Source: a virus
IMG/VR virus record: IMGVR_UViG_3300015262_000027
Coordinates: 1-30,067 of that record
DNA: 30,067 nucleotides
Reading direction: 5' to 3' (one strand)
In this document: positions 4,259 through 28,603 of the stretch, piece after piece
How the letters are laid out: each line of letters begins with the position of its first letter
Position numbering within the stretch: the first letter of the stretch is position 1
Notes under the pieces: model-generated
The model's input: the letters and a program-made list of their open reading frames with translations, nothing else
Database searches by the model: none
What the model was told of the DNA's origin: nothing
Position numbers and translations under genes: made by a program

Positions 4259-4954
4259 TCACTTATTTTTGGCCGGATCCAGGGTGTCCAGGTTCAGCAA
4301 CGTGAAGTGTCCACGGCCCGGCACCCACCCGGCGGTGTCGATGTGGTAGACGTTGCCGAGGACAGTGACCTCGCTCAGCGGCGTATGACCGACCACCAGC
4401 GCCCGAATATCCTGCACGCCCGAAACGTCGCCCTGCTCAACCCTGGAGCGCGACCACATGCAGCTGTTCTGCACCAGCTTCAAGCGTTTCGGTGTCGTCG
4501 CGCCTTCCAGCTCGAACTGGAGCTCATGCCAGGACGGGAACGGGCAATCGGCGTGCACCAGGCCGACCAGCCCGCCGGCTGTCTCGACCTCGATGGCGAT
4601 CGGCAGCTCGGCGAACTGGACGCGGAACTCTTCCTGCTCGTCGCGATTCAGCCCGGCAAACCAGGAGCCGCCGTTGTAGATCCAGTTTTCCACGTCGCAA
4701 GTGTCGAAGCGCACGACGTAATCGTCATGGTTGCCGCGCACCGCGTTGAACCACGGCTTATCCAGCCAGGCCAGCACGTCACGGCACTCAGGCCCTCGGT
4801 CGACCAGATCGCCAACACTGAACAGCCGGTCAACGGCAGGATCGAAGCCGATGGCGTCAAGAGCGGCCTGTAGCCGGGTGAAATGCCCGTGGATATCGCC
4901 GACTGCGAAGTCACGCCCGGCGGTGTTTCGTTCGAATCGATTGATCAGGCTCAT
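4259..4954 (-). CDS. PP-type serine/threonine phosphatase (lambda NinI/PrpA-like)
   Basis: A 231-residue metallophosphatase. The signature motifs are in order: GDIHGH (19-24), GDLVDRG (about 48-54), RGNHD (about 77-81), and later metal-ligand histidines in LVHADCPFP and VVGHTPL. This is the lambda protein phosphatase (NinI) / PrpA family, which removes phosphate from Ser/Thr or Tyr residues in the cytoplasm using Mn2+. The start at 4954 places the GDIHGH motif near residue 20 as usual for the family; longer upstream extensions look spurious. It sits downstream of NinG, matching the lambda nin region. Host target unknown. Confidence 0.9.
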   Translation of the reverse strand: MSLINRFERNTAGRDFAVGDIHGHFTRLQAALDAIGFDPAVDRLFSVGDLVDRGPECRDVLAWLDKPWFNAVRGNHDDYVVRFDTCDVENWIYNGGSWFAGLNRDEQEEFRVQFAELPIAIEVETAGGLVGLVHADCPFPSWHELQFELEGATTPKRLKLVQNSCMWSRSRVEQGDVSGVQDIRALVVGHTPLSEVTVLGNVYHIDTAGWVPGRGHFTLLNLDTLDPAKNK

Positions 4955-5109
4955 GCCTTGTTCTCCCCCGCAAACCGCATCTGCCGCGCCCGGCTGCACT
5001 TCGCATGGCTGCCAGTGGCGCGAGACTTGCCGCACTCGGTGCAGTTGGTTTTGTTGACGTACCAGGGCGATGGCGCTGGCTGCTGAAACATGGATGGGCG
5101 GCGGGTCAT
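4951..5109 (-). CDS. Small zinc-ribbon-like protein
   Basis: A 52-residue protein (MTRRPSMFQQPAPSPWYV...) with C-x2-C (CTEC) and later Cys/His residues in SHAKC that could bind one zinc. Both ends overlap neighbours by 4 bases, which fixes the start at 5109. Function unknown. Confidence 0.6.
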   Translation of the reverse strand: MTRRPSMFQQPAPSPWYVNKTNCTECGKSRATGSHAKCSRARQMRFAGENKA

Positions 5110-5378
5110 GGCGTCACCTTCTGCGCCTTGATCCAAGACAACACCTTTCGACGGCTGTACGAAAGGCCGTGAGGGCCACCGGCAACCGCCATGCGCTCAC
5201 GAATGAACCAGCGAGGGAATCCGTCAGCGACCACGTATGGTGGGAGCAATTCGGCTTTGTCGCTCAACACGGCCACGGCGCGGAGCTGGTACACCATTGA
5301 CTGCCCGCCCGGCACATAGGCGGCGTAGTAGATCGTCTGGCCGACCCGCAGACTTTTGACGGTAGGATATTTGCTCAT
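5106..5378 (-). CDS. Hypothetical nin-region protein
   Basis: A 90-residue basic protein whose first half (VKSLRVGQTIYYAAYV...MVYQLRAVAVL) reads like a small beta-barrel. It overlaps both neighbours by 4 bases in the NinG-phosphatase run. I recognise no family. Confidence 0.65.
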   Translation of the reverse strand: MSKYPTVKSLRVGQTIYYAAYVPGGQSMVYQLRAVAVLSDKAELLPPYVVADGFPRWFIRERMAVAGGPHGLSYSRRKVLSWIKAQKVTP

Positions 5379-5968
5379 GCTGTCGCTCTCTTCAGTTCAC
5401 GGGCCAGCGCCCGGTAGTGGGCCTTGATGGCTTTCAGGTCATCGATGGTGTAGCGCTTTGGCTCATGCGGGCCTTCCAGCCAATCGACCTTTTCCTGCCC
5501 GATGCGCTTTATCAGCTCGATCCGGTAAGGACCGAGGTTTCCAGACTTGGCCATGTTGCAGTTGCGATTGCATTGAAGGTGGACATTGAGAGGGTCAAAC
5601 CTAAGCTCTGGGTGCCCTCCTGCAGACCTGAAATGCCCAGCTGCATACTGGATATCCGCCGTTGTTCCGCACGATATGCATGGAAGGCCTGCATCCCTGG
5701 CGCGGACCCAGGCATTGAAAGCGACCTGGGTGTCCTTCATGTGCTCAGCGCGGGTCTTCAGCGCCGCCTTGCGTACCTTGATATCCCGGCGGCCGGCCAG
5801 GGCCAGCGACTTTTTCTCCCTGGCCTTCTGCGCCTCCACGGTGGCCAACGCGCACTTTGGACTGCACACAGCCTGCCCGAGGCGCTGCGGGACGAACGAG
5901 GTTTTGCAGGCTGGGTTTTTGCAGACCTTTGGCTTTGGCGCCTTCTTCTCCATGATGGCCGACCTCAT
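5375..5968 (-). CDS. ninG: NinG/Rap recombination nuclease
   Basis: A 197-residue protein matching lambda NinG (Rap), a structure-specific nuclease that cleaves D-loops and Holliday-type branches during Red-mediated recombination. Residues about 15-40 form a zinc-binding unit (CKNPACKTSF...VCSPKC). The conserved C-terminal part has CISCG, AGHFRSAGGH, NVHLQCN and CNMAKSGN, the HNH-like core. ATG 5968 overlaps the upstream stop; an in-frame ATG five codons later (MEKK) is possible. Partners: NinB upstream here, and Red beta, exonuclease and SSB in the rightward operon. Confidence 0.92.
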   Translation of the reverse strand: MRSAIMEKKAPKPKVCKNPACKTSFVPQRLGQAVCSPKCALATVEAQKAREKKSLALAGRRDIKVRKAALKTRAEHMKDTQVAFNAWVRARDAGLPCISCGTTADIQYAAGHFRSAGGHPELRFDPLNVHLQCNRNCNMAKSGNLGPYRIELIKRIGQEKVDWLEGPHEPKRYTIDDLKAIKAHYRALARELKRATA

Positions 5969-6231
5969 GCGACAACCTCCGCCGCTGGCTTTGGATCAAC
6001 AAGAATCAGGACGGGCGCGCCTGCAAACCACGTCGACCATTGCCCGCATTTCCCGCACTGAAGCTTGTCGTGCATTCCGTCGGGCTCGTTCGGCTGCTCA
6101 CCCTTCCACCCGCCGCAGTTGCCCTGCCAGGTTTCGCAGTGGGGGCACTTCTGGTCCGAGTAGCGTGTTTCTAGCCAGTGCTCGCGCTCTTTCTTCTCTG
6201 CGTACAGCTTGATCTTTGTCCAGATACTCAT
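5965..6231 (-). CDS. Zinc-finger hypothetical protein
   Basis: An 88-residue protein with two paired cysteine motifs, CPHC (about 29-32) and CGKC (about 59-62), which could form a treble-clef or zinc ribbon. It lies between NinB and NinG with ATGA overlaps on both sides. Unknown function; a nucleic-acid-binding accessory to recombination would fit the location. Confidence 0.65.
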   Translation of the reverse strand: MSIWTKIKLYAEKKEREHWLETRYSDQKCPHCETWQGNCGGWKGEQPNEPDGMHDKLQCGKCGQWSTWFAGAPVLILVDPKPAAEVVA

Positions 6232-6698
6232 GCCGCCACCTCGCTCAGCAGATCACCGAAAAACACGCCTTGCGCTGTGAACTCGGCGACGATGCGGTCG
6301 GTGAAGGCAATGCCTTGGGCGCGATTGAACAGACTAGTCACAGGGAAGCCATCAGGCCCGAACAACTTGCAATCGCCCATCATGGAAAGCTTTTCCTCGT
6401 AAGGCAGATGGCGCATGACCCGATACCAGGCCTGCTGGAACTCCTGGTCATCGTTGAGCAGGATCTGTACGCCGAAGTGCAATTTGCAGTAGCGACGGGC
6501 GTCTGCCGGGTCGCCGATCTGCGTCATTTCGGCAATTCGCTTGTAAAAGGCGAACCACAGCGCGTTTTGATCCAGGGTGCGATCCTTGCCCGGGCGCAGC
6601 GACACGACGACGAACTTCTTGTCGCGGAACATTGCGCTAAGTGCGGTGATAGCCTCGGACAGCTTGGCCTGGCAGTTGACGGAGATTTTCTCAGCCAT
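6228..6698 (-). CDS. ninB: NinB-like recombination mediator
   Basis: A 156-residue protein with the NinB signature RTLDQNALWFAFY near residue 40 and a following helical region, as in lambda NinB (Orf), an SSB/ssDNA-binding mediator that helps load the annealing protein. Length is close to lambda NinB (146). It precedes NinG in the same order as in lambda. It ends in a 4-base overlap with the zinc-finger gene. Confidence 0.85.
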   Translation of the reverse strand: MAEKISVNCQAKLSEAITALSAMFRDKKFVVVSLRPGKDRTLDQNALWFAFYKRIAEMTQIGDPADARRYCKLHFGVQILLNDDQEFQQAWYRVMRHLPYEEKLSMMGDCKLFGPDGFPVTSLFNRAQGIAFTDRIVAEFTAQGVFFGDLLSEVAA

Positions 6699-6753
6699 GC
6701 CTTAACGCCTCGTAAAACTTGCGCTTTTGGCGCTGAACCCATCCAATCAACAT
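6691..6753 (-). CDS. Tiny coupled ORF between phaZ and ninB
   Basis: A 20-codon frame, MLIGWVQRQKRKFYEALRHG. GGAG sits 8 bases before its ATG, and its stop overlaps the ninB start. It bridges the only gap in this part of the operon, so it may serve as a translational-coupling leader. Too short to support by composition. Confidence 0.35.
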   Translation of the reverse strand: MLIGWVQRQKRKFYEALRHG

Positions 6754-6758
6754 TTGAC

Positions 6759-7586
6759 TCACTCCTTGAGAAAGGCGGTGATTTGCGGGGTAACGGTTTT
6801 CGCCTGGGTGACCAGGAACAAGTGGCCGTCGTCGATGACACTCAAGCGCGAGTTGGGGATGAGGCTTGCCAGAATGCGCATATTGACCAGCGGAATGATC
6901 GGATCATCACTTCCAGCGAGGATCAGGGTTGGCTGCGTCAACCGGTGCAGCCAGTGAATGCTGGTCCAGTACATTGCCGCGAATAACTGGTAGTAGTACC
7001 CAGTCGTGTTCGGGCTCTTCGGGCGGTCCATGAGCGCCTTGCACAGCTCTGGATTGGTGCGGTACATGCCGCCATAGATCTCTGGCGCGATCCGCGCAGC
7101 GTACTCAGGATCTAGATACCGGCGCGGGCTGGCCATCTTGAGGATCACGCTCGGCGAGGCCGGCACCATGAACATGCCCATGGCAGTGGCCGCCAAAATC
7201 AGTCTCTTGCACCGGTCTGGATAGTCGTGGGCGAACTGCTGAGCAAGGGCGCCACCCCAGGACACGCCGATTACGCTCACCTCGTCGTATCCCAGTACGT
7301 CCAGCATCTTGGCGACGGTGCGAGCCAGCCCATCGAATCGATAGGGAAAGAACGGCGCGGGAGACTCACCAACCCCTGGCGCATCGAAAGCGATGACCTC
7401 AAGATCGGGGTCCAGTGACTCAATGAAAGGCATGACCAGATCGATACTGGCGCCAATGCCATTGAAGACCAGAAGCGGCAAGAGTTTGCTGCTACCCGGG
7501 CGCACCATAGTGCGAATCCGCTGGCCGCCGACGTTTACAGTCTTGTGGATGAAAGAATCTGCGGTAACACGCTCCATGCGGCTCAT
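6759..7586 (-). CDS. phaZ: PhaZ-like intracellular PHA depolymerase (alpha/beta hydrolase)
   Basis: A 275-residue alpha/beta hydrolase. It matches, segment by segment from memory, the medium-chain-length polyhydroxyalkanoate depolymerase PhaZ of Pseudomonas (about 283 residues): TVNVGGQRIRTMVRPG, PLLVFNGIGA, DLEVIAFDAPGVGES, VIGVSWGGALAQQFAHDYP, MASPRRY, WTSIHWLHRLTQPTLILAG and DDGHLF. The catalytic triad is visible: Ser109 (GVSWGG), Asp228 (SDDP) and His255 (DDGH). It would release 3-hydroxyalkanoic acids from host storage granules in the cytoplasm. Its start overlaps the upstream stop (ATGA), so it is part of the phage operon. A different ester substrate is possible. Confidence 0.88.
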   Translation of the reverse strand: MSRMERVTADSFIHKTVNVGGQRIRTMVRPGSSKLLPLLVFNGIGASIDLVMPFIESLDPDLEVIAFDAPGVGESPAPFFPYRFDGLARTVAKMLDVLGYDEVSVIGVSWGGALAQQFAHDYPDRCKRLILAATAMGMFMVPASPSVILKMASPRRYLDPEYAARIAPEIYGGMYRTNPELCKALMDRPKSPNTTGYYYQLFAAMYWTSIHWLHRLTQPTLILAGSDDPIIPLVNMRILASLIPNSRLSVIDDGHLFLVTQAKTVTPQITAFLKE

Positions 7587-8332
7587 TGGTCGCCACCCTT
7601 CGCAGCCTGCTCCCGGTCATAGTCCTGATCGCCGCGCTCAACGCATACGCCGTGGCAGTAGGGCTGATCGCATTCGATGCAGGTCTTGGTCTTGGCAGGC
7701 GCCGGAACAAACTCGAATGCTGGGCAGAGAGTCCGTGCGTGATCGAGCAGAGGCGCCGACCAGTCACGACCCACGCCGTCATCGTAAGCAAACAGCATCC
7801 CTCCGAGGACGCGCTGAAGCTCGGCCAGCCTCTTCTCCAGATCCTGGCTCAAGTCGAAGAACGAGCGGCGCGATTGTTCGGTGTTGGCCAGCTGGGCGCG
7901 TAGGTCGTCTCGTTCTTTCTGCGCAGCCTCATAGGCCAGCTTCGAGACGTAGCCACGATCCGATGGGCGCCCGTAAAGCTTGTCACCGCGACGCAGCGGG
8001 CTTCCGTCTTCGCCATACAGAATCTCGATAAACAGCCCGTCGTCAGATTCGTCTACGATAGCCAAGGCCGGCTCAGACTCACCGTGAGCACGCGACTCAC
8101 CGTCCGCACCGTGAGTACCATTATCACCATCCCACTCCAGCGCACCGGGGATGGTCAGGTGGGCGGCGGGTTGTGGTTGGGCCATCAGATCATTGAAGAA
8201 GTCGAACGCAGCAGCGGACGCCCCGCCATCACCATTCTCACAGAACGAAACCATGGCTCCGCATGGCGTCGTCAACTGATAGCGCGAAGGCGAATCAACC
8301 AGGTCAAGCTTCCATCCCTTTGGAATATTCAT
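7583..8332 (-). CDS. Phage hypothetical protein with coiled coil and C-terminal cysteines
   Basis: A 249-residue protein of unknown function. The N-terminal 60 residues look globular (MNIPKGWKLDLV...). Then comes an acidic, repetitive segment (GESRAHGESEP), a central coiled coil (about 135-175, ERDDLRAQLANTEQSRRSFF...) and a C-terminal C-x2-C...C-x3-C cluster (CIECDQPYCHGVC). The repetitive segment is encoded by a cluster of ACTCAC/GTGAG repeats (8077-8116) that resemble the dyads around parA-parB. It overlaps both neighbours by 4 bases. Confidence 0.65.
   Translation of the reverse strand: MNIPKGWKLDLVDSPSRYQLTTPCGAMVSFCENGDGGASAAAFDFFNDLMAQPQPAAHLTIPGALEWDGDNGTHGADGESRAHGESEPALAIVDESDDGLFIEILYGEDGSPLRRGDKLYGRPSDRGYVSKLAYEAAQKERDDLRAQLANTEQSRRSFFDLSQDLEKRLAELQRVLGGMLFAYDDGVGRDWSAPLLDHARTLCPAFEFVPAPAKTKTCIECDQPYCHGVCVERGDQDYDREQAAKGGDQ
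8077..8116. repeat. ACTCAC/GTGAG half-site cluster inside a coding region
   Basis: ACTCAC at 8077 and 8095 and GTGAG(T) at 8084 and 8111, two inverted pairs within 40 bases. The half-sites match the GTGAGT-N5-ACTCAC dyads flanking the par operon 1.3-2.2 kb away. This could be a centromere or secondary binding site for the ribbon-helix-helix partner. Confidence 0.45.
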
Positions 8333-8538
8333 TTTTTCGACACCCCATATTTAACAAGACACTCCAGCGCGTACTGCGCCGGGTAGGACCACTTGATCTT
8401 GCCGCCGAGCCAGTCGCCGATCGTTCGGTGACCGACGCCCAATGCCGCGGCTGCTTGCTTCTGCGTCATCCCGGACGATGCGATCAGCTGCCTGATGTGT
8501 GCCGGGTCAGTGCTTAACTTGCTTGGATCCAGCTTCAT
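8329..8538 (-). CDS. Cro/CI-type helix-turn-helix protein
   Basis: A 69-residue DNA-binding protein made of one lambda-repressor-like HTH: IRQLIASSGMTQKQAAAALG then VGHRTIGDWLGG as the recognition part, ending WSYPAQYALECLVKYG. It overlaps the methyltransferase-like gene upstream and the 249-residue gene downstream by 4 bases. It could regulate this sub-operon. It is too short and too far from cro to be an obvious prophage repressor, but it is one of the few candidates in the window. Confidence 0.75.
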   Translation of the reverse strand: MKLDPSKLSTDPAHIRQLIASSGMTQKQAAAALGVGHRTIGDWLGGKIKWSYPAQYALECLVKYGVSKK

Positions 8539-9308
8539 GCGGCTTTCACTTTTGCTTTGATGGATTCAGCGATGTACCTGCCCCACTGGTCACCCATGGC
8601 GGCGGCGATGCCGGGATAGGTCTTGGAGCGCTCAAGCCAGCGGTCGTCGGATGGCGTCAGCTTGTTCTGGCCGCCGTCAGTTTGGTTGTCCCAGCGCGGC
8701 AGGAACTTGTGAGTTCCGCACTCAGGGCACTCGGCCTGACCGTGCTTGAAGGTGTGCTCGTTCTCGCAGACAAGGCGCGGCTTAACGTACTGAGCAGGGT
8801 CAATCACCAGCTTCGGCAGACCTTTAGTGAGCCAGAACCCGGTCCCCTTGCTTGCGTCATCACCGAAGTGATGAGGGTGGACCACTTGGTCAGGTTTGCG
8901 GATCGCAGTGTTGATCGCAGACGTGCCCGGGTTCTCGATGGCCACCGGGAACGGCAGATCAAGCAACTTGCGGAAATTGTCCAGCTCGACGGCTTGTGCA
9001 GCTCGGCGCTCGGCGCCATAGAGCTTTTCTGGGTTTGGTTTTTGGTGGTAGCCAACGCCCGGGTACTTTTCAAAGTTGGCATCCATAAGCGCCCAAGCAC
9101 CCGAGCAAGTCAGGTAGGTACACATCGGATGGAGAACTGCGAGATCCCATTGCTTGGCAGTCAGTGCGAACCAGATATCGCCTTGGATGTGGTTTCCACC
9201 TTCGCCGCGAGCAGGCAGAAGGTCACAAGTCCAGACTTCATGGCCGTGCTTCTCGAACGCCTTACGGGTCAGCTCGCAAGCTGAGTACCCAATTAGAATC
9301 TTTCCCAT
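8535..9308 (-). CDS. C5-cytosine methyltransferase-like protein
   Basis: A 257-residue protein related to phage DNA cytosine methylase-like proteins. The SAM-binding start (KILIGYSACELTRKAFEKHGHEVWTCD) is followed by an acidic turn (GDIW), a PxCT motif in HPMCTYL (Cys63, the likely nucleophile) and ENPGTS (125-130). A C-terminal zinc-finger-like unit has C-x11-CPEC spacing (about 193-207). It lacks the full ten-motif order and the long target-recognition domain of classic enzymes, so activity on DNA is uncertain. The start at 9308 has GGAG 4 bases upstream. It is the first gene of the sub-operon leading to phaZ and divergent from parA. Confidence 0.75.
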   Translation of the reverse strand: MGKILIGYSACELTRKAFEKHGHEVWTCDLLPARGEGGNHIQGDIWFALTAKQWDLAVLHPMCTYLTCSGAWALMDANFEKYPGVGYHQKPNPEKLYGAERRAAQAVELDNFRKLLDLPFPVAIENPGTSAINTAIRKPDQVVHPHHFGDDASKGTGFWLTKGLPKLVIDPAQYVKPRLVCENEHTFKHGQAECPECGTHKFLPRWDNQTDGGQNKLTPSDDRWLERSKTYPGIAAAMGDQWGRYIAESIKAKVKAA

Positions 9309-9339
9309 TTCTCCAACCCCTGTTGCTGGTCCCTTTCTG

Positions 9340-9355
9340 GTCCCTCTGAAGAGAC
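9340..9355. promoter_or_regulatory. Dispersed dyad, copy 3 (GTCCCT-CTGA-AGAGAC)
   Basis: In the divergent gap between the methyltransferase-like gene and parA, followed on the plus strand by TATATG. An extra half-site (GGTCCCT) lies 11 bases to the left. Confidence 0.6.
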
Positions 9356-9408
9356 TATATGCGATGCCCGCGAATATGCAAAGCGATTTCCGCACATTCG
9401 TATATTCT

Positions 9409-9425
9409 GTGAGTCAAATACTCAC
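9409..9425. promoter_or_regulatory. par operator dyad, upstream (GTGAGT-N5-ACTCAC)
   Basis: Perfect 6-bp inverted repeat with a 5-base spacer, 17 bases before the parA start and just after TATATT (9401-9406), a possible -10. The same dyad with the same spacing recurs downstream of parB. Likely binding site for the ribbon-helix-helix partner and probably autoregulatory. Confidence 0.6.
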
Positions 9426-9441
9426 GATGGGCGCTGTACTC

Positions 9442-10050
9442 ATGAAAAAGATCGGGCTATGGACGCAGAAGGGCGGGGCTGGCAAGTCAACCAGCGCGGT
9501 CACCCTGGCCGGGGCGCTGGCTCAGAAACACCGCGTTGCCCTGATAGATACCGACCCACAAGGCAGCATCAGCCGGTGGACGGAGATTGCGAACCTGCCG
9601 AACACGCTCGAGATATTCACCGCCGAGCGCCTGTCAGACCTAAGGGGGCTGTCGGGGTTTGACTACGCGGTGATCGACACGAAGGGGGAGTTGTCAGCAG
9701 AGGCGTTGCCATACCTGGACATGGCGCTGCTGCCGTGCGCACCGAGCATGTTCGACATCTGGGCGGCTGCCGACTCAATCGAGCTGATGAAGGCGCACCA
9801 GGCACACCGCCCCGAGTTCATCGCGGCGCTGTACGTCAATCGACTGGACCAGAACACACTATTGGGCCGGGATATCGCCGAGGCGCTGAATGGCTACGGC
9901 CTGCCCGTGCTCAGCGTGCCCCTGCGCGACCGGATCGGATACCCGACAGCCATTGCCAGAGGGAAAACCCCTACGAGAAGCGGCGACAGCGAGATACGCC
10001 TGGAGTCGCTGCGCTTCGCTGAAGCCGTCAAGAAACTATTGGAGGCCTAA
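9442..10050 (+). CDS. parA: ParA-type partition ATPase
   Basis: A 202-residue deviant-Walker ATPase. MKKIGLWTQKGGAGKSTSAV carries the P-loop KGGAGKS (residues 10-16), followed by VALIDTDPQGS (switch/Walker A') and FDYAVIDTKG (Walker B region). The short length, with no N-terminal DNA-binding domain, is that of ParF/type Ib partition ATPases, which form nucleoid-bound gradients to segregate low-copy plasmids. I prefer the ATG at 9442; one at 9427 is in frame but lies in the operator. It is followed 2 bases later by the RHH partner gene. Genes on both sides run leftward, so the pair is a separate inserted module. Confidence 0.92.
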   Translation: MKKIGLWTQKGGAGKSTSAVTLAGALAQKHRVALIDTDPQGSISRWTEIANLPNTLEIFTAERLSDLRGLSGFDYAVIDTKGELSAEALPYLDMALLPCAPSMFDIWAAADSIELMKAHQAHRPEFIAALYVNRLDQNTLLGRDIAEALNGYGLPVLSVPLRDRIGYPTAIARGKTPTRSGDSEIRLESLRFAEAVKKLLEA

Positions 10051-10052
10051 CC

Positions 10053-10271
10053 ATGAAATTACTCACCACAGCACCCAGCAAGGTCGCCGACAGGGCGCCG
10101 AAGATTCTGGCCCAGGCCAGCAAGCCAGTCGCCGAAGAGAAGCGCCTGAACGTGCGCCTCGATGCGGAGAAACACGAACGGTTCCGCCGGGCCTGCATGC
10201 GCAACGAGTCGGACATGACGACGGTGATTCAGGATTTTATCGACCAGTATGTCGCGAAGTACTCACGGTGA
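10053..10271 (+). CDS. parB: Ribbon-helix-helix partition partner (ParB-like)
   Basis: A 72-residue protein with a flexible basic N-terminus (MKLLTTAPSKVADRAPK) and a C-terminal ribbon-helix-helix: a beta strand KRLNVRLDAEKHERF, then two helices through DMTTVIQDFIDQYVAKY. This is the layout of type Ib partner proteins (ParG-like), which bind the centromere and stimulate ParA. GGAGG sits 7 bases before ATG 10053, and only two bases separate it from parA. It presumably binds the GTGAGT-N5-ACTCAC dyads on either side. The symbol is functional, not a homology claim to HTH-type ParB. Confidence 0.82.
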   Translation: MKLLTTAPSKVADRAPKILAQASKPVAEEKRLNVRLDAEKHERFRRACMRNESDMTTVIQDFIDQYVAKYSR

Positions 10272-11203: not shown

Positions 11204-11448
11204 GATTTCACCCATCGGCGAATCGAAAGCTCGCATCCGCTAGTCAGTGCGACACCGTTGGCCTTGCCGACATGCGTTTTTGGCGTATCACAGCCGCAGC
11301 TGCATTTCGGTTTTCGCCCGGGCCGCTTGGGCCGCTGTTCCATGTACCGGATATGCTCGGCAAGTCCGCCAACCCGGCCCCAGCCTGCCATGCCGCCGCG
11401 CATTGCCGCCGACCGAGCAGCATTCGACATTTCGTTGAGATCGCTCAT
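11200..11448 (-). CDS. Small basic protein with cysteine cluster
   Basis: An 82-residue protein with a glycine/arginine-rich N-terminus (MRGGMAGWGRVGGLAEHIRYM), a basic linker (KRPGRKPKC) and closely spaced cysteines (KCSCGCD) that may hold a metal. It overlaps the P gene and the next gene by 4 bases. No family recognised. Confidence 0.6.
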   Translation of the reverse strand: MSDLNEMSNAARSAAMRGGMAGWGRVGGLAEHIRYMEQRPKRPGRKPKCSCGCDTPKTHVGKANGVALTSGCELSIRRWVKS

Positions 11449-12173
11449 GGCTTCACATCCCGCTTGATCTTCAGTTTCGCCAACAGCTGCGCCCGTGCAT
11501 CCGCCCCGGTCGCTGGAATGCCCTGAGCCTCTCTAACTCGGGCATGCCGCTGCTCGGCGTAGTCGTTGGCCAGCTCGGTCTCCGACTTCTGGCTGTCGTG
11601 ACCAATGCCGGCCAGGATCTCCCCGTTAAGCGGTTGGCCGGCCTGGGCGCGGCGCAATATAACCTCGTAGTTGCGATCAAATCGCTCGTGCAGACCCTTG
11701 TTGTCCTGCTTGGAGCCGCGAAGGTCGAACAACCCCGTGGCATTGGCGGCCAGTCGAACGGCCTCATGGCTGTAGGTGCCCATTAGCGCCTCAAGCCACG
11801 CATCCGCCGGGGCGGGCATACCGAAGCTCGCCGGCCCGGGCGTACACCAGCCAATGAACTGGCCGATGCTCGGGGCGAAGGGTGAACCGCTTCGGCGGCA
11901 TTCCTCGACCCCGTAGCGCACCTGGTCCAGGTCGTGGATACCGGCATCCATAAACCCTTTGGTCCAGCTCCGCTTTGCAGACGACAGCGCCTTGTCATCG
12001 GGCCAGGCCTGTTTCCATGCCGGGAAGATCGCCTGCAATTGTCGGAAAATCTTCTCAACGATTTCCCCAGTCTGGTCATCAACCACGCCCAGCGGCTGGG
12101 TAGCCACGGGCAACGGCTGCTTGACGCGAAGCTGGCGCGCAGCAGTTGGGATTAGCTGAGTGACGTTTTTCAT
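11445..12173 (-). CDS. P: Phage replication protein P (helicase loader)
   Basis: A 242-residue lambda P-like protein, which recruits the host DnaB helicase to the O-bound origin. The central block IFPAWKQAWPDD...KRSWTKGFMDAGIHDLDQVRYGVEECRRSGSPFAPSIGQFIGWC is the family core I recognise. The N-terminus is a disordered linker (QLIPTAARQLRVKQPLP). It follows O immediately with a 4-base overlap, as in lambda. Confidence 0.88.
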   Translation of the reverse strand: MKNVTQLIPTAARQLRVKQPLPVATQPLGVVDDQTGEIVEKIFRQLQAIFPAWKQAWPDDKALSSAKRSWTKGFMDAGIHDLDQVRYGVEECRRSGSPFAPSIGQFIGWCTPGPASFGMPAPADAWLEALMGTYSHEAVRLAANATGLFDLRGSKQDNKGLHERFDRNYEVILRRAQAGQPLNGEILAGIGHDSQKSETELANDYAEQRHARVREAQGIPATGADARAQLLAKLKIKRDVKP

Positions 12174-12925
12174 AGGTCATCACTCGTATCAGTTCGCCAG
12201 GATTCGTCGTAGAAGTCAGGCCCGGACGACTTCGGCTTCGCAGGCGACTGGTCAGTGGCAGGCGTTACCTCGTCCTCCCAGCGCTTGGCATTCAGCCAGG
12301 TCGCCGGGTGCGGGATGAACTTGCCGCCATCCTTCGTCCAGTCCGCCGACAGCTTCTGCGCCAGAACCGCGGCGATGATCAGTTCGGAAAGAGCGTGGTC
12401 AGGTTTGACCTTCGCCCAGGCCTTCTCAGCATCACCCTTGGCCTTCTTTTTCGGATAAGCAGACCAGAACAAATCGAACGCCCCGGCCGGCTTGTCGGCC
12501 ATAGGTTTTTTAGGTTCCTTGACTGGTTCAGAAGAGTGACTGGTTCTGGGGTTTTCTGCCGCCCCACCCCCTGGGTTTTCTGCCGCCCGAGGTGGGTTTT
12601 TTACCGCCCCACCCCCTGGGTTTTCTGCCGCCCCACTAACTGAAGGTGTTACAGCTCCACCATCCAGCGTCAAATGGAACAAATTCGACTGATTCAGTTC
12701 GCCCTTTCGGCGAAATTCGCGACGTAGAAGGCCGGCCTTTTCAAGCTCGCGGATGTGCACCTTCACAGTCGATCTTGCGATTTCGCACTGATCCGCAATG
12801 TGTTGGTACGACGGCCAGCATTCACCCGTGTCGCTGGCATTATCGGCCAGCTTGAGCAGCACCAGCTTCCGCAACGGGTTGCCAACCTTAACCTTCATGG
12901 CCTTGACCATCAAATCCATACTCAC
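12170..12925 (-). CDS. O: Phage replication initiator O-like
   Basis: A 251-residue initiator. Residues about 8-75 form a winged helix (NPLRKLVLLKLADNASDTGECWPSYQHIADQCEIARSTVKVHIRELEKAGLLRRE split as helices plus wing) that should bind the origin iterons. Next comes a proline/asparagine linker made of repeated GGGAAENP units (about 105-135), and then a C-terminal domain (FDLFWSAYPKKKAKGDAEKAW...) expected to contact P. The linker is encoded by the iterons themselves, as in lambda. GTG 12925 overlaps the HNH stop and has GGAGG 7 bases upstream; the ATG at 12919 is the alternative. Confidence 0.88.
   Translation of the reverse strand: MSMDLMVKAMKVKVGNPLRKLVLLKLADNASDTGECWPSYQHIADQCEIARSTVKVHIRELEKAGLLRREFRRKGELNQSNLFHLTLDGGAVTPSVSGAAENPGGGAVKNPPRAAENPGGGAAENPRTSHSSEPVKEPKKPMADKPAGAFDLFWSAYPKKKAKGDAEKAWAKVKPDHALSELIIAAVLAQKLSADWTKDGGKFIPHPATWLNAKRWEDEVTPATDQSPAKPKSSGPDFYDESWRTDTSDDL
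12549..12635. repeat. Replication origin iterons inside O
   Basis: Four copies of GGGTTTTCTGCCGCCCCA start at 12549, 12573, 12594 and 12618 (24, 21 and 24 bases apart, so in phase with the reading frame). Copy 2 ends GA and copy 3 reads TTTTTTACC. Lambda also has four 18-bp iterons within O, and an O dimer binds each. Confidence 0.75.
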
Positions 12926-13446
12926 GGCATCACCTCCGCAGGAATGGAAACGTGATCCCAGGCTTCTAGCTCGCAAAGGAAGACGACGGTCTTCGGCAAC
13001 CCAAGGTCGATACCCATCGCTTCAAGCGCAAGCGCCTGTTTTGGCAGGATGACGCCAGCAACCTTGCTGCGCCTCACGCGAATCATGTTCCTGACCTCGG
13101 AAATGCTCCGATGGCACTTCCCGGAATTGCACGGAGTGCAGGCGTACATCATGTTCGGCGGGACGTGAGCGCCACCAAGAGCTTGCGGGATGATGTGGTC
13201 AATCTGGGCATTGCCGCCAGGAGCCATATCATCGCCGCAATAGCCGCATCGCCCTCCCTGCACAGACCAAAGCCAGTGCTTAAAGTGGGCAGAGTAAATG
13301 GGCTGACCTTGATTGGAGATCTTGCCGATGCGTCGGGAGTAACCGAAACGAGACACAGCCTCCGGGCTGACAATCTCGCCAGCGTCCTTGTGCGGTGTTT
13401 TCTTTGGACGGCTGGAAATGGTGGCGACTTCATACAGGCCGTTCAT
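12922..13446 (-). CDS. HNH endonuclease
   Basis: A 174-residue nuclease with a zinc-stabilised HNH core: CGYCGDD, then IDHIIPQALGG (catalytic His of the DH pair), N in PPNMMYAC and CTPCNSGK. The flanks (SAHFKHWLWSVQGG before, RVRRSKVAGVI after) are basic, suiting DNA binding. Start 13446 (MNGLYEVATISS) overlaps the preceding 33-residue frame's stop. It sits directly upstream of O in the leftward operon, and may be a free-standing homing-type or restriction-like nuclease rather than a packaging nuclease. Confidence 0.85.
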   Translation of the reverse strand: MNGLYEVATISSRPKKTPHKDAGEIVSPEAVSRFGYSRRIGKISNQGQPIYSAHFKHWLWSVQGGRCGYCGDDMAPGGNAQIDHIIPQALGGAHVPPNMMYACTPCNSGKCHRSISEVRNMIRVRRSKVAGVILPKQALALEAMGIDLGLPKTVVFLCELEAWDHVSIPAEVMP

Positions 13447-17585: not shown

Positions 17586-18404
17586 ATGAGCGCAGTTATG
17601 AAGCAGGCCGAGCATGTGCCGGCTATGTCCGAGTCAGCCCTTGTTGAAGTGTTAAGCAGCAGCCTTTACCCGGGCGCCGCCCATAACTCAGTGGTCATGG
17701 TTTTGGCCTACTGCAAGGCCGCCCAGCTTGATCCGATGCTGAAGCCGGTCCACATCGTGCCTATCTGGAGCAAGTCCGCGGGCCGTATGGTTGACACCGT
17801 GATGCCTGGTGTTGGCCTGTACCGGATCCAGGCAGCGCGCACCGGCCAGTATGCCGGGATCAGCGAGCCGGTCTATGGGCCTGAGATCACCATGAAGCTT
17901 TCCGGCCTAGAGGTCACCTTCCCAGAGTGGTGCCGGGTGACGGTAAAGCGCCAGATGGGCAACGGCCTGGTCGCCGAGTTCACCGCCAACGAGCGCTGGC
18001 TGGAGAACTACGCCACGGCCAAGAAAGACACCCAGGCGCCGAATGCCATGTGGCTGAAGCGAGCGTATGCACAGCTTGCCAAGTGCGCCGAGGCGCAGGC
18101 CCTGCGCAAGGCATTCCCCGAGGTCGGATCAGCCCCAACGGCTGACGAAATGGAAGGCAAGGCGTTCGAGGAAGTCGCTCGCGATGTCAGCCCGCAACAG
18201 CAGGCCGAGCCAGAGCCCGAAGCGCTTCCGGCCTACTCGGACGACCTGCTCAAAGAAAACCTCGTCAAGTGGCAGCCGCTGATTGACGCCAACCGAACCA
18301 GCCCCGAACACCTGATCGCGACCATCAGCAGCAAGTACACGCTGACCGATGCGCAGAAAGAACAAATCACCAACCTGAAAGCCCTCGACGGAGACGCAGC
18401 ATGA
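17586..18404 (+). CDS. bet: Red beta-type single-strand annealing protein
   Basis: A 272-residue Bet/RecT-superfamily protein. The conserved block GAAHNSVVMVLAYCKAAQLDPMLKPVHIVPIWSK, VMPGVGLYRIQAARTGQYAGISEP and MWLKRAYAQLAKCAEAQALRKAFPE is diagnostic of lambda Bet-like recombinases. These anneal complementary ssDNA produced by the partner exonuclease. The C-terminal part is an acidic, disordered linker plus a small helical domain. AGGGGGG precedes the ATG. Its stop overlaps the exonuclease start, as expected for a recombinase pair. Confidence 0.93.
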   Translation: MSAVMKQAEHVPAMSESALVEVLSSSLYPGAAHNSVVMVLAYCKAAQLDPMLKPVHIVPIWSKSAGRMVDTVMPGVGLYRIQAARTGQYAGISEPVYGPEITMKLSGLEVTFPEWCRVTVKRQMGNGLVAEFTANERWLENYATAKKDTQAPNAMWLKRAYAQLAKCAEAQALRKAFPEVGSAPTADEMEGKAFEEVARDVSPQQQAEPEPEALPAYSDDLLKENLVKWQPLIDANRTSPEHLIATISSKYTLTDAQKEQITNLKALDGDAA

Positions 18405-20056
18405 AAATTCACAACGTAGCTCAAGGTTCCGCCGAGTGGCATGCCCTGCGCGGCCAGCACTTCACCGCCTCCGAAGCTCCAGCCATGATGGGCGCCTCGA
18501 AGTACCAGACCCGCACCGATCTGCTGACCCTGAAAAAGACCGGGATCGCGCCGGACGTCACGCCGTCTCAGCAGTTCATCTTCGACAAGGGCCATGCCAC
18601 TGAGGCGGCGGCCCGACCGCTGGTTGAAGTGATGATCGGCGAAGAGCTGTATCCGGTCGTAGGCACCTCGGGCAACTTGCTCGCCTCGATGGACGGCGCG
18701 ACGATGCTCGGCTAGACGCTGTTCGAGCACAAGCTTTGGAACGAATCGCTGGTCGCCCAGGTGAAGGCTGAAGACCTGGGTCCGCACTACTACTGGCAGC
18801 TTGAGCAGCAGCTACTGGTCAGCGGGGCCGAACGTGTGATTTTCGTTTGCTCCGATGGCACCCCTGACAACTTCGTCAGTATGGAGTACCGCGCGGTCGC
18901 CGGTCGCGCCGAGCAACTGGTCGAAGGCTGGAAGCAGTTCGAGGCAGATCTTGCGGTGCATGAGATCAACAGCGCGCCTTCAATCGTCGTCGGCAAGGCC
19001 CCGGATGAACTGCCAGCGCTGCGCATCGAGCTGACAGGCATGGTTACCGCCAGCAACCTGAAAGTGTTCGAGCAGTCGGCCTTGGCGGTCATTGATACGG
19101 TGAAAACTACGCTGACCACCGACCAGGACTTCGCCGACGCCAAAAAGGCCGTCAAGTGGTGCGGCGATGTTGAGGAAGCAGTCGCGACAGCCAAGAAGCA
19201 GGCGCTGTCGCAAACCCAGTCCATCGAAGAACTGTTTTCGTCGCTGGATCGCGTCTCTGCGCATGCCCGCGAAACCCGGCTGAAGGTCGACAAGTTGGTC
19301 AAGGCTCAGGAATTGGTCGTAAAGACCAGCATCAAGCAGAAGGCCGAGCAGGCGCTGACTGATCACGTCGCAGCGATCAACAAGACCCTGGGCAAAGTGG
19401 TGCTGCCGCCGATCGCAGCAGACTTCGCGGGCGCCATGAAGAACAAGCGCACCATTGCCAGCTTGCAGGACGCTGTTGATACCGAGCTGGCCCGGGCCAA
19501 GATCGACGCTAGCCAGTTGGCCGACGCTATCCGCCTGAACCTTGAAAGCCTGCGCACCCTCGCCATCGACCACGCTTTCCTGTTTGTCGACGCTCAGCAG
19601 CTGGTCACGAAGGCCAATGACGACCTGGTGGCACTGATCAAAGTTCGCATTTCCGAACACAAGAAAGCCGAGGAAGAAAAGGCCGAGGCCCTGCGCGAGA
19701 AGATCCGCAAGGAAGAATTGCAGCGCATCGAGGACGAAGCCAAGGCGAAGCAGGCGGCCGAAGTAGTTCCCGAGCCCGCGCCTGTCGCAACACCAGCGCC
19801 GGTGTCGACTCCTGAGCCGGTGAAAGCTGCCCAAGTCGTTCAGCAGTCCGCCAAGCCTGTAGCAGCACCAACCCATCAAGCGCTGACCTTGCAAGCCAAT
19901 GTTTTCGACCTGGAGGAGCTGGTCAAGGCCGTGGCCGCTGGCGAGGCTCCGCTGTCGGTGTTGGTGGTCAACTGGGAAGCGCTCGACGCACTGGTCGCCT
20001 CCCAAGGCGCCGCATTCAGCATGGCCGGCGTAAGGCTGGACAAAGTAGCGGCATAA
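18401..20056 (+). pseudogene. YqaJ-type recombination exonuclease, amber-interrupted
   Basis: The frame encodes a YqaJ/lambda-exonuclease-like nuclease: AEWHALRGQHFTASEAPAMMG near residue 12, FDKGHATEAAARP near 65, and LFEHKLWN at 107-114, which carries the catalytic E-x-K. Codon 105 is TAG (18713-18715), in DGATMLG-stop-TLFEHK; a tryptophan TGG would fit there. The product would stop just before the metal-binding Glu/Lys. The downstream half stays open for 446 codons: the rest of the nuclease fold, a coiled-coil region and a proline-rich linker. This open tail argues for a recent mutation or a sequencing error. A GTG at 18761 could start only a non-catalytic fragment. Confidence 0.85.
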
Positions 20057-22106: not shown

Positions 22107-22262
22107 ATGGAAACGATCTACACCCACCGCCCGACCGGGCGAACCTACTCGCTGGCTCGCACTTCTGCCGAGTTCGCGATCCTGCATCACCTGACGGGCG
22201 GGGCGAAGTTTGTTCGCCGCGGTGACCTGGTAGACGGCAGCGTTTGGAGTGTGAAGGCATGA
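22107..22262 (+). CDS. Small hypothetical protein
   Basis: A 51-residue protein (METIYTHRPTGRTYSLARTSAEFAIL...) with a beta-rich start. AGGAGT lies 6 bases before ATG 22107. Its stop overlaps the methyltransferase start, so it is co-translated with it. Unknown function. Confidence 0.6.
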   Translation: METIYTHRPTGRTYSLARTSAEFAILHHLTGGAKFVRRGDLVDGSVWSVKA

Positions 22263-23935
22263 ATGCGCCAGCGAGGACTTTGCACGGAGAGATTGTTGAA
22301 GATGTGAGCGAGTTTTTCGCGCCCATGTCGAGCGATCTGGTTGATAGCCTTGTCGGCGAGTACGATTCCGCCCGCAAGCGCCTGGAGAATATGGCCGCGT
22401 CGGTGTCTGGCGATGCTTGCCGCGGAGTGCTGCACTACTTTGTTGAGGGTAACGTCGGCGAAAGCCGCCACAGCATGCCAACCACCGTCGAGGCGCTGTT
22501 TCGTGTTGAGGGTGCGGTCGGCCAGCTCAATGCGGACTTCTGGAATCGCGCACTGCGTATGACCGACGTAATCGACTACATGCCGCAGAAGCGCCGGCAG
22601 GAGTGGTTCGACCAGATGAAGAACCCGCTGGGCCGAAAGAACAACAAGCACACGCAAGAAGGCGACTTGCCGCCGCTGCCCGACTTCACAGACGAGAGCG
22701 TGCGCGCAACACTGTCCGGCCTGCTATCGAGCCGGGCGCAGTTCCTGGCCGAGCGGGTAGACGGAATCTTTCGCGCCCTGAGTCGCCAGCATGTGACCAA
22801 CGTGCCGCAGGGCTTCGGCAAACGGATGATTATTGCCAACGTTTTCGGCTACGAGACATCAGGCCACATCAACGACCTGCGATGCGTGATCGCCAAGTTC
22901 ATGGGGCGAGATGAGCCGAAGCATGGCGTCACCGATCCAGTGATAAAGGCCGCGCGCCGCCAGAACGGCGAGTGGATGTTTGTAGATGGTGGCTCGCTTC
23001 GCATCCGCGTCTATGGCGGCGTCGGCACTGCTCACCTGGAGGTGCATCCAGAGATGGCCTGGCGCCTTAACGCCACGCTGGCAAACCTTTACCCCGCTGC
23101 AATCCCTGCTGAATTCCGCGAGAAGCCGAAGCGCGCGAAGAAGATCAAGGATTTTGTCCTGTTCGACAAGCCGCTACCGTTCGCCGTTGTGGCCCAGTTG
23201 GCCGACATGAAATCAGGGTGGCGAGGCGTGAAGGATGGCTGGCAGGTTGGCCGCGCAAATATCCCCAATACCCGTGTTTTCGGTTACGGCTGCAACGATA
23301 AGGCCGCACGCCAGCAGGCTGAGAAGGCGCTTGAGGCGATTGGCGGCGTATGGGTGAAGGGCGAAAAAGGCGAACTTGGCTCATGCGACCACTGGGCCTT
23401 TGATTACGAGCCAGGCCCTGTAATTGATCAAGTTGTCTGCTCTGGCTGCATTCCCGATCAAAAGTCGCACCAGTTCTACCCGACGCCGGATGTCGTGGCC
23501 AATGCAGCAATCGAGAACGCCATGGTCGGAGCGGTGGACGGCATGAAGTGGCTTGAGCCGAGCGCCGGCCAAGGTGGTTTGGCTGATTTAATGCCGAAGC
23601 CGGTATGCGTGGAGATCAGCGCCTTGCACTGCGAGATCCTCAAGGCGAAGGGTCATTACGTCGAGCAGGCCGACTTTCTTAAATGGCAGATCACTGGACG
23701 CTATGACCGAATAGTGATGAATCCGCCGTACAGCGAAGGCCGCTGGCAGGCGCATATAGAGCACGCGGCATCGATGCTAAAGGATGGCGGGCGACTAGTC
23801 GCAGTGCTTCCGGCCAGCGCGAAAGGCAAGGACGTTTTGCCGGGCCTCAGTCATGAGTGGTCGGATATTTACTCGAATGAGTTTGCCGGGACCAGCGTTT
23901 CGGTTGTGATCCTTTCCGCCGAGCGTCAAATCTAG
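22259..23935 (+). CDS. DUF4942-type N6-adenine DNA methyltransferase
   Basis: A 558-residue protein. The first about 400 residues resemble the DUF4942 domain found fused to phage methyltransferases. The C-terminal part is a SAM-dependent methyltransferase: FYPTPDVVANAAIENA, WLEPSAGQGGLADLM (SAM pocket), CVEISALHCEIL (acidic residue for the ribose), QADFLKW and the catalytic NPPYSEGRW. NPPY indicates amino-methylation, most likely N6-adenine. It would protect phage DNA from host restriction or affect regulation. It ends in TAG, showing that TAG acts as a stop in this genome. Confidence 0.88.
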   Translation: MNAPARTLHGEIVEDVSEFFAPMSSDLVDSLVGEYDSARKRLENMAASVSGDACRGVLHYFVEGNVGESRHSMPTTVEALFRVEGAVGQLNADFWNRALRMTDVIDYMPQKRRQEWFDQMKNPLGRKNNKHTQEGDLPPLPDFTDESVRATLSGLLSSRAQFLAERVDGIFRALSRQHVTNVPQGFGKRMIIANVFGYETSGHINDLRCVIAKFMGRDEPKHGVTDPVIKAARRQNGEWMFVDGGSLRIRVYGGVGTAHLEVHPEMAWRLNATLANLYPAAIPAEFREKPKRAKKIKDFVLFDKPLPFAVVAQLADMKSGWRGVKDGWQVGRANIPNTRVFGYGCNDKAARQQAEKALEAIGGVWVKGEKGELGSCDHWAFDYEPGPVIDQVVCSGCIPDQKSHQFYPTPDVVANAAIENAMVGAVDGMKWLEPSAGQGGLADLMPKPVCVEISALHCEILKAKGHYVEQADFLKWQITGRYDRIVMNPPYSEGRWQAHIEHAASMLKDGGRLVAVLPASAKGKDVLPGLSHEWSDIYSNEFAGTSVSVVILSAERQI

Positions 23936-27771: not shown

Positions 27772-27962
27772 GTCGCCCCCTAAAAGTCCACGCCTTCAGC
27801 GGCGAACCTGAGCGCGGAATGCCGATTGATGTGTCGCGCGACTACTACGCCCAGGGCCTGAGAGGAACCAAGTGCGGATACATGCGTAAGGTTTCATTCG
27901 ACGAAAGCAAGGTGACGTGCCTGAGCTGCCTGCGGGAAATGTCAAAGGAGAGCGCGCAATGA
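27768..27962 (+). CDS. Small cysteine-containing accessory protein
   Basis: A 64-residue protein (MSRPLKVHAFSGEPERGMPIDVSRDYYAQG...) with C...CLSC near the C-terminus, which could share a zinc. Coupled to neighbours by 4-base overlaps. Unknown function. Confidence 0.55.
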   Translation: MSRPLKVHAFSGEPERGMPIDVSRDYYAQGLRGTKCGYMRKVSFDESKVTCLSCLREMSKESAQ

Positions 27963-28603
27963 GCAAGGCAATCGAAATCTCGCGGGATCTGCCACCATGC
28001 GAATGCGGCAGCAAAGACGTCTCTATCGGCTACGAGAGCCCTCAAGGCTATTGGGTTGAATGCGGAGACTGCGGGTATCAGACAGAGAAAAGCCACAGCA
28101 GAGAGCTGATCATTGCTAAGTGGGATAAGCGCACCGCGCCAGCCGATGAGTTCCAAGAGCCAGTAGCCTACGATCTGTCGAAGGCCGAATACTTCGAAGG
28201 CGTCGCCGAGTTACGACAGCAATCGCTGACAAGGGCCTGGGGAAAAATCAGGAAGCTCAGGGATGAGAACGACCAGATAAAGGCGAAGCTGATGCACCAG
28301 GAGGCCGAAGCCGGAACCCTGGCCGAGCGCATGAAGGCGGCCGGAATGATGACCGTCGACGAGCTGCTTGCCGGCGCTCCACTGGATGCCTTCACTCGCC
28401 ACGCGGGCGTCAACAGCCTTGAGGCTTTCGCTCAATGGCTCGAAATGCGCCGCCGTGAATACGTGACCATGCAAGCCAAGCGAACGCTGGACAAACGCGA
28501 AGACGATGATCTCTACGAGTGGGTGCTTGCTCATGCCGGAGTGTTCGGCGAGGTGCACGTCAACTTCAAAGCAGCAATGGCTGCCCATGAAAAAAACGGG
28601 TGA
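27959..28603 (+). CDS. Lar-like restriction alleviation protein with C-terminal helical extension
   Basis: A 214-residue protein. The first 60 residues form the Lar zinc-ribbon: PPCECGSKDVSIGYESPQGYWVECGDCGY, then SRELIIAKWDKR. Lar proteins of lambdoid prophages modulate type I restriction in favour of modification. Residues about 70-214 are an added coiled-coil/helical region (LRDENDQIKAKLMHQEAEAGTLAERMKAAG...), absent from short Lar proteins and of unknown role. ATG 27959 overlaps the previous stop. Confidence 0.7.
   Translation: MSKAIEISRDLPPCECGSKDVSIGYESPQGYWVECGDCGYQTEKSHSRELIIAKWDKRTAPADEFQEPVAYDLSKAEYFEGVAELRQQSLTRAWGKIRKLRDENDQIKAKLMHQEAEAGTLAERMKAAGMMTVDELLAGAPLDAFTRHAGVNSLEAFAQWLEMRRREYVTMQAKRTLDKREDDDLYEWVLAHAGVFGEVHVNFKAAMAAHEKNG

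Follow-up and report, generated by a model that had tools for sequence, protein, structure and literature searches.

We describe a phage lineage of PhaZ, the Pseudomonas-type intracellular depolymerase of medium-chain-length polyhydroxyalkanoate (mcl-PHA), one member of which is encoded in the early module of an uncultivated lambdoid phage. Family membership of this protein, its orthology to chromosomal PhaZ, its intact catalytic residues and its phage context are shown below, as are the purifying selection on phage phaZ genes and their existence as a separate lineage distributed over many phage types. The reading we favour, and consider likely, is that the protein is a phage-adapted intracellular mcl-PHA depolymerase which feeds beta-oxidation by way of host enzymes; here the timing of expression, the activity on PHA and the benefit to the phage are all inferred. 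Both the enzyme family and auxiliary metabolic genes were already known: what appears new is that such a gene would target a storage polymer and has a phage lineage of its own.

Genomic context of phaZ

The window analysed here is the entire 30,067-base metagenomic IMG/VR contig IMGVR_UViG_3300015262_000027. Because it also encodes an integrase, a RecT-like annealing protein, RecE-like ORFs, an SSB and an endolysin, we interpret it as a temperate lambdoid phage. A host from the Pseudomonas group is inferred from the ancestry of its PhaZ and from the relatives of its ninB.

Table 1 Features of the phaZ region of the window.
Feature	Position	Strand	Basis
Phage-type phaZ, intracellular mcl-PHA depolymerase homologue, 275 aa	6759..7586	-	TIGR02240, conserved residues, AlphaFold2 model
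Upstream gene of unknown function, 249 aa, stop overlaps phaZ start	7583..8332	-	sequence reading
Small HTH protein, same co-directional run	8329..8538	-	PF01381 and phrog_3865
ninB (Orf-like recombination mediator)	6228..6698	-	phrog_7283, full length, E 3.3e-79
Small phrog_8828 protein in the ninB-ninG gap; family label HNH endonuclease	5965..6231	-	phrog_8828, E 1.3e-19
ninG (Rap-like junction endonuclease)	5375..5968	-	PF05766, 211 bits; phrog_171
NinI-like serine/threonine phosphatase	4259..5035	-	phrog_246, E 1.8e-71
O-like replication initiator and P-like helicase loader, upstream end of the co-directional early module	11445..12976	-	phrog_270, phrog_109

The phaZ ORF comprises 275 codons and begins with an ATG that shares bases with the TGA stop of the preceding ORF, forming an ATGA overlap; the stretch AAGGGTGG lies upstream of this start. 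PHROG and Pfam searches gave no match for the 249-aa product of the preceding ORF. A homologue of it is found directly upstream of phaZ in two other metagenome contigs (L004 and L006), where the stop/start overlap is identical to that of the window. Further upstream are, in order, the HTH gene and a methyltransferase-family gene, followed at a greater distance by the P-like loader and the O-like initiator. On the other side, ninB is followed by the phrog_8828 gene, ninG, a 90-aa gene and the NinI-like phosphatase gene. Phage genes thus flank phaZ on both sides, and the arrangement meets the definition of a lambdoid nin region, namely ninB, ninG and associated genes downstream of O/P. Predicted promoters and terminators occurred at counts close to those in shuffled sequence and yielded nothing usable.

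The initial annotation, made from sequence alone, had described a gene embedded in a phage nin operon, next to ninB and ninG, with its start coupled through ATGA to a phage gene. The overlap and the adjacency to ninB and ninG held. The embedding held only in part: phaZ is just upstream of ninB, in an accessory stretch which extends from the P-like helicase loader to ninB, and not between nin genes. The nin-operon framing was also too narrow, as most phage copies reside in unrelated contexts. Like the nin region of lambda, the window carries counterparts of ninB/orf, ninG/rap and ninI (the NinI-like phosphatase) downstream of O/P-type genes; unlike in lambda, the stretch between the P-like loader and ninB additionally contains phaZ, the methyltransferase-family gene, the HTH gene and a ParA-like gene on the opposite strand.

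The gap between phaZ and ninB contains a 20-codon ORF (MLIGWVQRQKRKFYEALRHG; 6693-6755, minus strand) which overlaps the ninB start and is possibly a small gene.

Family assignment and orthology

The window protein scores 402.1 bits against the NCBIfam equivalog model TIGR02240 (poly(3-hydroxyalkanoate) depolymerase), for which the cutoff is 250.6 bits, and divergent phage copies also exceed this cutoff (L129, 334 bits; L140, 383 bits; L143, 329 bits). TIGR02240 is the best family for 15/15 aligned phage copies and the sole family which all of them match at E ≤ 1e-60. Matches of this quality are rare: only two of the 369 genomes in a sample of Gammaproteobacteria exceeded the cutoff. In each of four Pseudomonas-group genomes the best match was one gene, with 62-63% identity and 382-390 bits, and the next paralogue reached just 54 bits. 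This gene is located between two class II PHA synthase genes (phaC1-phaZ-phaC2) in the two genomes checked, and because of this placement we identify it as the chromosomal PhaZ of the pha operon. These data strongly support the assignment of the window protein to the Pseudomonas-type intracellular mcl-PHA depolymerases, as the initial annotation had proposed: the identity is upheld by profile score, orthology and residues, with hydrolysis of PHA itself still inferred.

Other families were considered and rejected. The model for scl intracellular PHA depolymerase (NF050089) gave 62.6 bits against a cutoff of 300, and those for PcaD, RutD, BioH and haloalkane dehalogenase all scored far under their own cutoffs. 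The phage esterase/lipase family phrog_789, which the window protein matches at 112 bits, likewise consists of alpha/beta hydrolases, but it is generic and does not capture the PhaZ identity. A sequence search of solved structures returned no close relative, the best being Est1 at 92 bits.

Catalytic residues, lid and predicted fold

In P. putida PhaZ, the catalytic triad is Ser102/Asp221/His248, and the enzyme depends on Asn35, the FNGIG loop (34-38), the YYWQLF segment (190-195) and the hinge residue Ser184 (PMC12504323). The window residues correspond to the P. putida positions at +7 throughout: S109, D228 and H255 as the triad, N42, FNGIG at 41-45 and S191. The triad residues occur in the contexts GVSWGG (S109), AGSDDP (D228) and DDGHLF (H255) and are invariant across the 15 phage relatives first aligned, in agreement with the earlier claim of a Ser109-Asp228-His255 triad in contexts typical of PhaZ. 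In the extended set, 41/41 phage sequences retain S102, D221, H248, N35, G36-G38, Y190 and Q193 (P. putida numbering). The resemblance to PhaZ of P. putida KT2440 extends over the TIGR02240 match, the collinear residues, the Ser-Asp-His triad, the FNGIG loop, the hinge Ser and, less certainly, the predicted lid architecture. The window copy differs from Pseudomonas PhaZ in being only 62-64% identical, in belonging to its own phage lineage, in lying outside a phaC1-phaZ-phaC2 operon, and in lacking the C-terminal tail, as it stops at about P. putida residue 268.

In P. putida PhaZ, the lid controls both the access of substrate and the specificity: deletion of the YYWQLF segment abolished activity, and a point change at the lid hinge, S184F, yielded an esterase that had little activity as a depolymerase (PMC12504323). 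The lid is also where the phage proteins diverge most. In the window, the hinge segment reads YYYQLF (197-202), with the single change W192Y relative to P. putida, and S191 is retained; among the phages this segment varies, and changes include W192 to Y/L and G199 to W/Y (P. putida numbering). Compared with PhaZ of P. aeruginosa PA7, the window protein is 47% identical in the lid and 66% elsewhere. Substitutions specific to the phage clade fall in 15 of the 44 cell-conserved columns within the lid versus 15 of 148 outside it (Fisher p = 5e-4). We regard this enrichment as a pattern and not as proof of adaptation, since the test treats columns as independent, the sequences are related, and the limits of the lid (about residues 143-206) were set by eye from predicted helices. 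Together, the changed lid and shortened tail raise the possibility, which is not shown, of an enzyme freed from host control. The substrate could also have shifted, because the lid substitutions include W192 to Y/L and S184F alone sufficed to make P. putida PhaZ an esterase.

The AlphaFold2 model (pLDDT 82, pTM 0.85) predicts an alpha/beta hydrolase core and a lid made of helices. In a fold search the nearest structures were esterases, among many alpha/beta hydrolases that include the intracellular Bacillus PhaZ 8ynv, a PHB depolymerase (Z 28.8), the AHL-degrading Est816 and a phospholipase. The fold cannot tell the substrate.

Distribution among uncultivated phages

Three scans of IMG/VR returned 59 distinct contigs with a PhaZ relative, two of which (L147 and L149) are so divergent that we do not call them PhaZ and one of which (L018) is partial. 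All phage contigs are metagenomic and many are fragments, and ORF calls outside the window are mechanical. When loci were grouped by at least 2 shared neighbours within 4.5 kb, 57 loci, the window included, resolved into 15 gene contexts; this count depends on the threshold and becomes 16 when at least 3 shared neighbours are required. Five further metagenome contigs show phaZ in the same nin context as the window, four of them at 97-99% (L003-L006) and one at 60% (L013, the same as L129). As this gene order recurs in independent metagenome contigs and the TIGR02240 score is 402 against 250.6 bits, the phaZ locus is not a product of chance.

The carriers comprise siphoviruses, baseplate-bearing myoviruses and jumbo phages in the 200-300 kb class (228-307 kb), and outside the window, too, virion or replication genes share contigs with phaZ. 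The gene is found in the RecE/RecT-type region of other temperate phages (L007-L010), in a myovirus baseplate region (phrog_6; L012), in a phage with a T4-type baseplate hub (phrog_150; L014), and in 49-kb siphovirus-like phages, on the strand opposite to the head and tail genes (L142). Terminase (phrog_2) was detected in 15/23 phage records with phaZ and integrase (phrog_1) in just 3 of these 23. The low number with integrase suggests that phaZ is not confined to temperate phages, though some records are fragments, in which absence is no proof. A survey of related phages, proposed at the outset to look for the same neighbour order, was therefore positive for the gene in many other phages, with an order that mostly differs.

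A NinI-like phosphatase gene (phrog_246; 5849-6517) was observed about 1.5 kb from phaZ in L143, an AT-rich 93-kb phage which is otherwise unlike the window.

Among the phages searched, close copies of the gene were confined to uncultivated ones. A tblastn search of 50,697 INPHARED (GenBank phage) records detected no close copy, only hydrolases of 25-30% identity; because no cultured phage in this collection carries phaZ, isolates give no information on its host, timing or effect. No phage-type phaZ was present in 398 Pseudomonadaceae genomes, which gave one match per genome, at most 64% identical. Relatives of ninB, with up to 85% identity, were found in 28 of these 398 genomes, presumably in prophages, and none of 20 Pseudomonas nin-type loci examined, in which ninG is present, contained phaZ. 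No description of a phage PHA depolymerase turned up in the literature searched, which misses most subscription papers and preprints; tables in viral-gene surveys may list the function without comment.

Lineage and selection

In a tree of phage and Pseudomonas sequences with a distant outgroup, 40 phage sequences fell on one side of a single branch (support 100/98; 100% of bootstrap trees). A broader tree added sequences from Burkholderiaceae, Bradyrhizobium, Phyllobacterium, Pukyongiella and Tsukamurella. Here chromosomal Pseudomonas PhaZ formed one clade (100/98), whose sister group consisted, with moderate support (84/82), of 38 phage rows and one copy from a P. silesiensis megaplasmid. The latter (L193, 6001-6894) is a phage-type phaZ carried by pPL1, a 1.17-Mb plasmid of a Pseudomonas silesiensis that came from a plastics landfill; no prophage was evident in the surroundings of the gene. 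The PhaZ of a 280-kb jumbo phage record (L146, 8001-8780) grouped with Burkholderiaceae PhaZ (98/97). Monophyly of all phage copies is thereby rejected: the expectation that they form their own clade was met for nearly all of them, with the L146 copy outside and the L193 plasmid copy inside. From these two placements we deduce that phages captured the gene at least twice and that one copy was apparently exchanged with a plasmid.

Phage copies are mostly 54-72% identical to sampled Pseudomonas PhaZ, and none exceeds 72%. For this reason, and because none of the 398 genomes has a phage-type copy, we do not consider them recent passengers from hosts. Pairwise dN/dS values for 15 phage pairs range from 0.03 to 0.21, and the GC content of phaZ, from 0.42 to 0.61, tracks that of the phage genome carrying it. 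The outcomes that would have refuted the initial annotation, best matches to non-PHA hydrolases, or absence of the gene from all other phages combined with inactivity on mcl-PHA, failed to materialise as far as can be computed: the best matches are PhaZ, and many uncultured phages, if no cultured one, carry the gene.

Proposed role

PHA is a major reserve of carbon and for stress in Pseudomonas and many other environmental bacteria, and its monomers need ATP-dependent activation and beta-oxidation. We propose that phaZ would be translated by coupling to the 249-aa gene, within a delayed-early nin-type transcript. The nin-type genes of lambda are delayed-early, and by analogy PhaZ would appear as replication starts. 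During lytic growth the enzyme would use its Ser-His-Asp triad and interfacial lid to hydrolyse the ester bonds of host PHA granules, which would push the host cycle of PHA synthesis and degradation toward breakdown and release 3-hydroxyalkanoic acids. Host acyl-CoA synthetase and beta-oxidation would convert these into acetyl-CoA and reducing power for phage synthesis. The most probable benefit would be fuel for virion synthesis when the host is rich in PHA but limited in growth. No phasin and no AMP-binding enzyme of the acyl-CoA synthetase type was detected in 23 phage contigs, the phasin control being positive in Pseudomonas, and for this reason we suppose that the phage supplies only monomer release and the host the later steps. 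Mobilisation of the carbon store during lytic growth, as first suggested, remains an inference, as does its benefit to the phage.

Cyanophage talC, cp12 and zwf are phage auxiliary metabolic genes that redirect host carbon. Phage phaZ resembles genes of this type in that it encodes a metabolic enzyme of host origin which selection has maintained across many lineages of phages; it differs in that they act on a step of flux, and it would act on a stored polymer. A bolder reading, to which we give slightly less than even odds, is that of a dedicated lineage, captured at least twice (from Pseudomonas and from Burkholderiaceae) and passed between phages of temperate, virulent-looking and jumbo types, with a lid and tail free of the control of the host PHA cycle. 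If this were true, infecting phages would liquidate the host carbon store at will. With a phage lineage of PHA-mobilising enzymes, it would commonly be viruses that determine what becomes of the PHA reserve, and the role proposed here, if correct, suggests how phages replicate in growth-limited, storage-rich cells. The designed lid changes made so far have abolished PHA depolymerase activity (PMC12504323); the phage copies would offer naturally occurring PHA depolymerases in which the lid has changed.

Alternative explanations

We considered whether the protein is a PhaZ-derived hydrolase with a new target, its lid retuned to a different acyl ester or lactone of the Pseudomonas cell, in the service of signalling interference or lysis; candidates include acyl-homoserine lactones, the 3-hydroxyalkanoyl lipids that are precursors of rhamnolipids, and membrane lipid. 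The bias of divergence to the lid, including the changes at W192 and G199, and the presence of Est816, esterases and a phospholipase among the fold neighbours speak for it. We nonetheless judge it unlikely: the triad, Asn35, GIG, Tyr190 and Gln193 are kept in 41/41 sequences, TIGR02240 is the only family common to all 15 aligned copies at the E-value given above, and the identity to genuine PhaZ, mostly 54-72%, is far closer than the similarity to any solved esterase (best 92 bits). It also appears improbable that PHA is broken down for a purpose other than fuel, be it clearance of granules to make space for virion assembly, assistance to lysis or weakening of host stress tolerance. No enzyme for downstream assimilation was detected in the 23 phage contigs, and in L012, L017 and L142 phaZ is isolated on the strand opposite to tail genes, outside replication modules; against this, phaZ of the window is in an early replication/recombination module and not beside lysis genes, and hosts already encode the assimilation route.

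Lysogenic conversion, whereby PhaZ expressed from a prophage helps the lysogen use its own PHA store, would draw on the integrases of the window phage and a few others. We hold it very unlikely given the placement of phaZ in an early lytic module, the absence of a phage-type copy from all 398 Pseudomonadaceae genomes even though 28 have close ninB relatives, its absence from all 20 nin loci examined, and the lack of a detected integrase in most phaZ phages, jumbo phages included. Finally, the gene might be a recent passenger without phage function, acquired by chance from a host or created by metagenome misassembly; the window is, after all, a 30-kb metagenomic contig, and no cultured phage in the collection searched carries phaZ. 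This can be all but excluded: the junction is identical in several independent metagenomes, the phage lineage is separate and not nested in the phaZ of any host species, and the gene is under strong purifying selection, matches the composition of each phage and occurs in 15 contexts.

Other features of the window

Several further genes of the window were recorded. The RecE-like exonuclease (phrog_7655; 18401-20056, plus strand) is divided between two ORFs, 18401-18715 (model positions 1-105) and 18761-20056 (model positions 122-549), which could mean that the gene is broken, that it consists of two parts or that the sequence contains an error. On the same strand are a DNA methyltransferase gene (phrog_6263; 22244-23935) and a weak match to Lar-like restriction alleviation (phrog_599; 27917-28603). 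A ParA-like ATPase and a 72-aa Arc-like partner are encoded at 9154-10271 on the plus strand, opposite to the early module within which they lie. L004 and L005 contain a similar pair, and in L133 a ParA-like gene lies close to phaZ; the two genes of the window may form a partition cassette.
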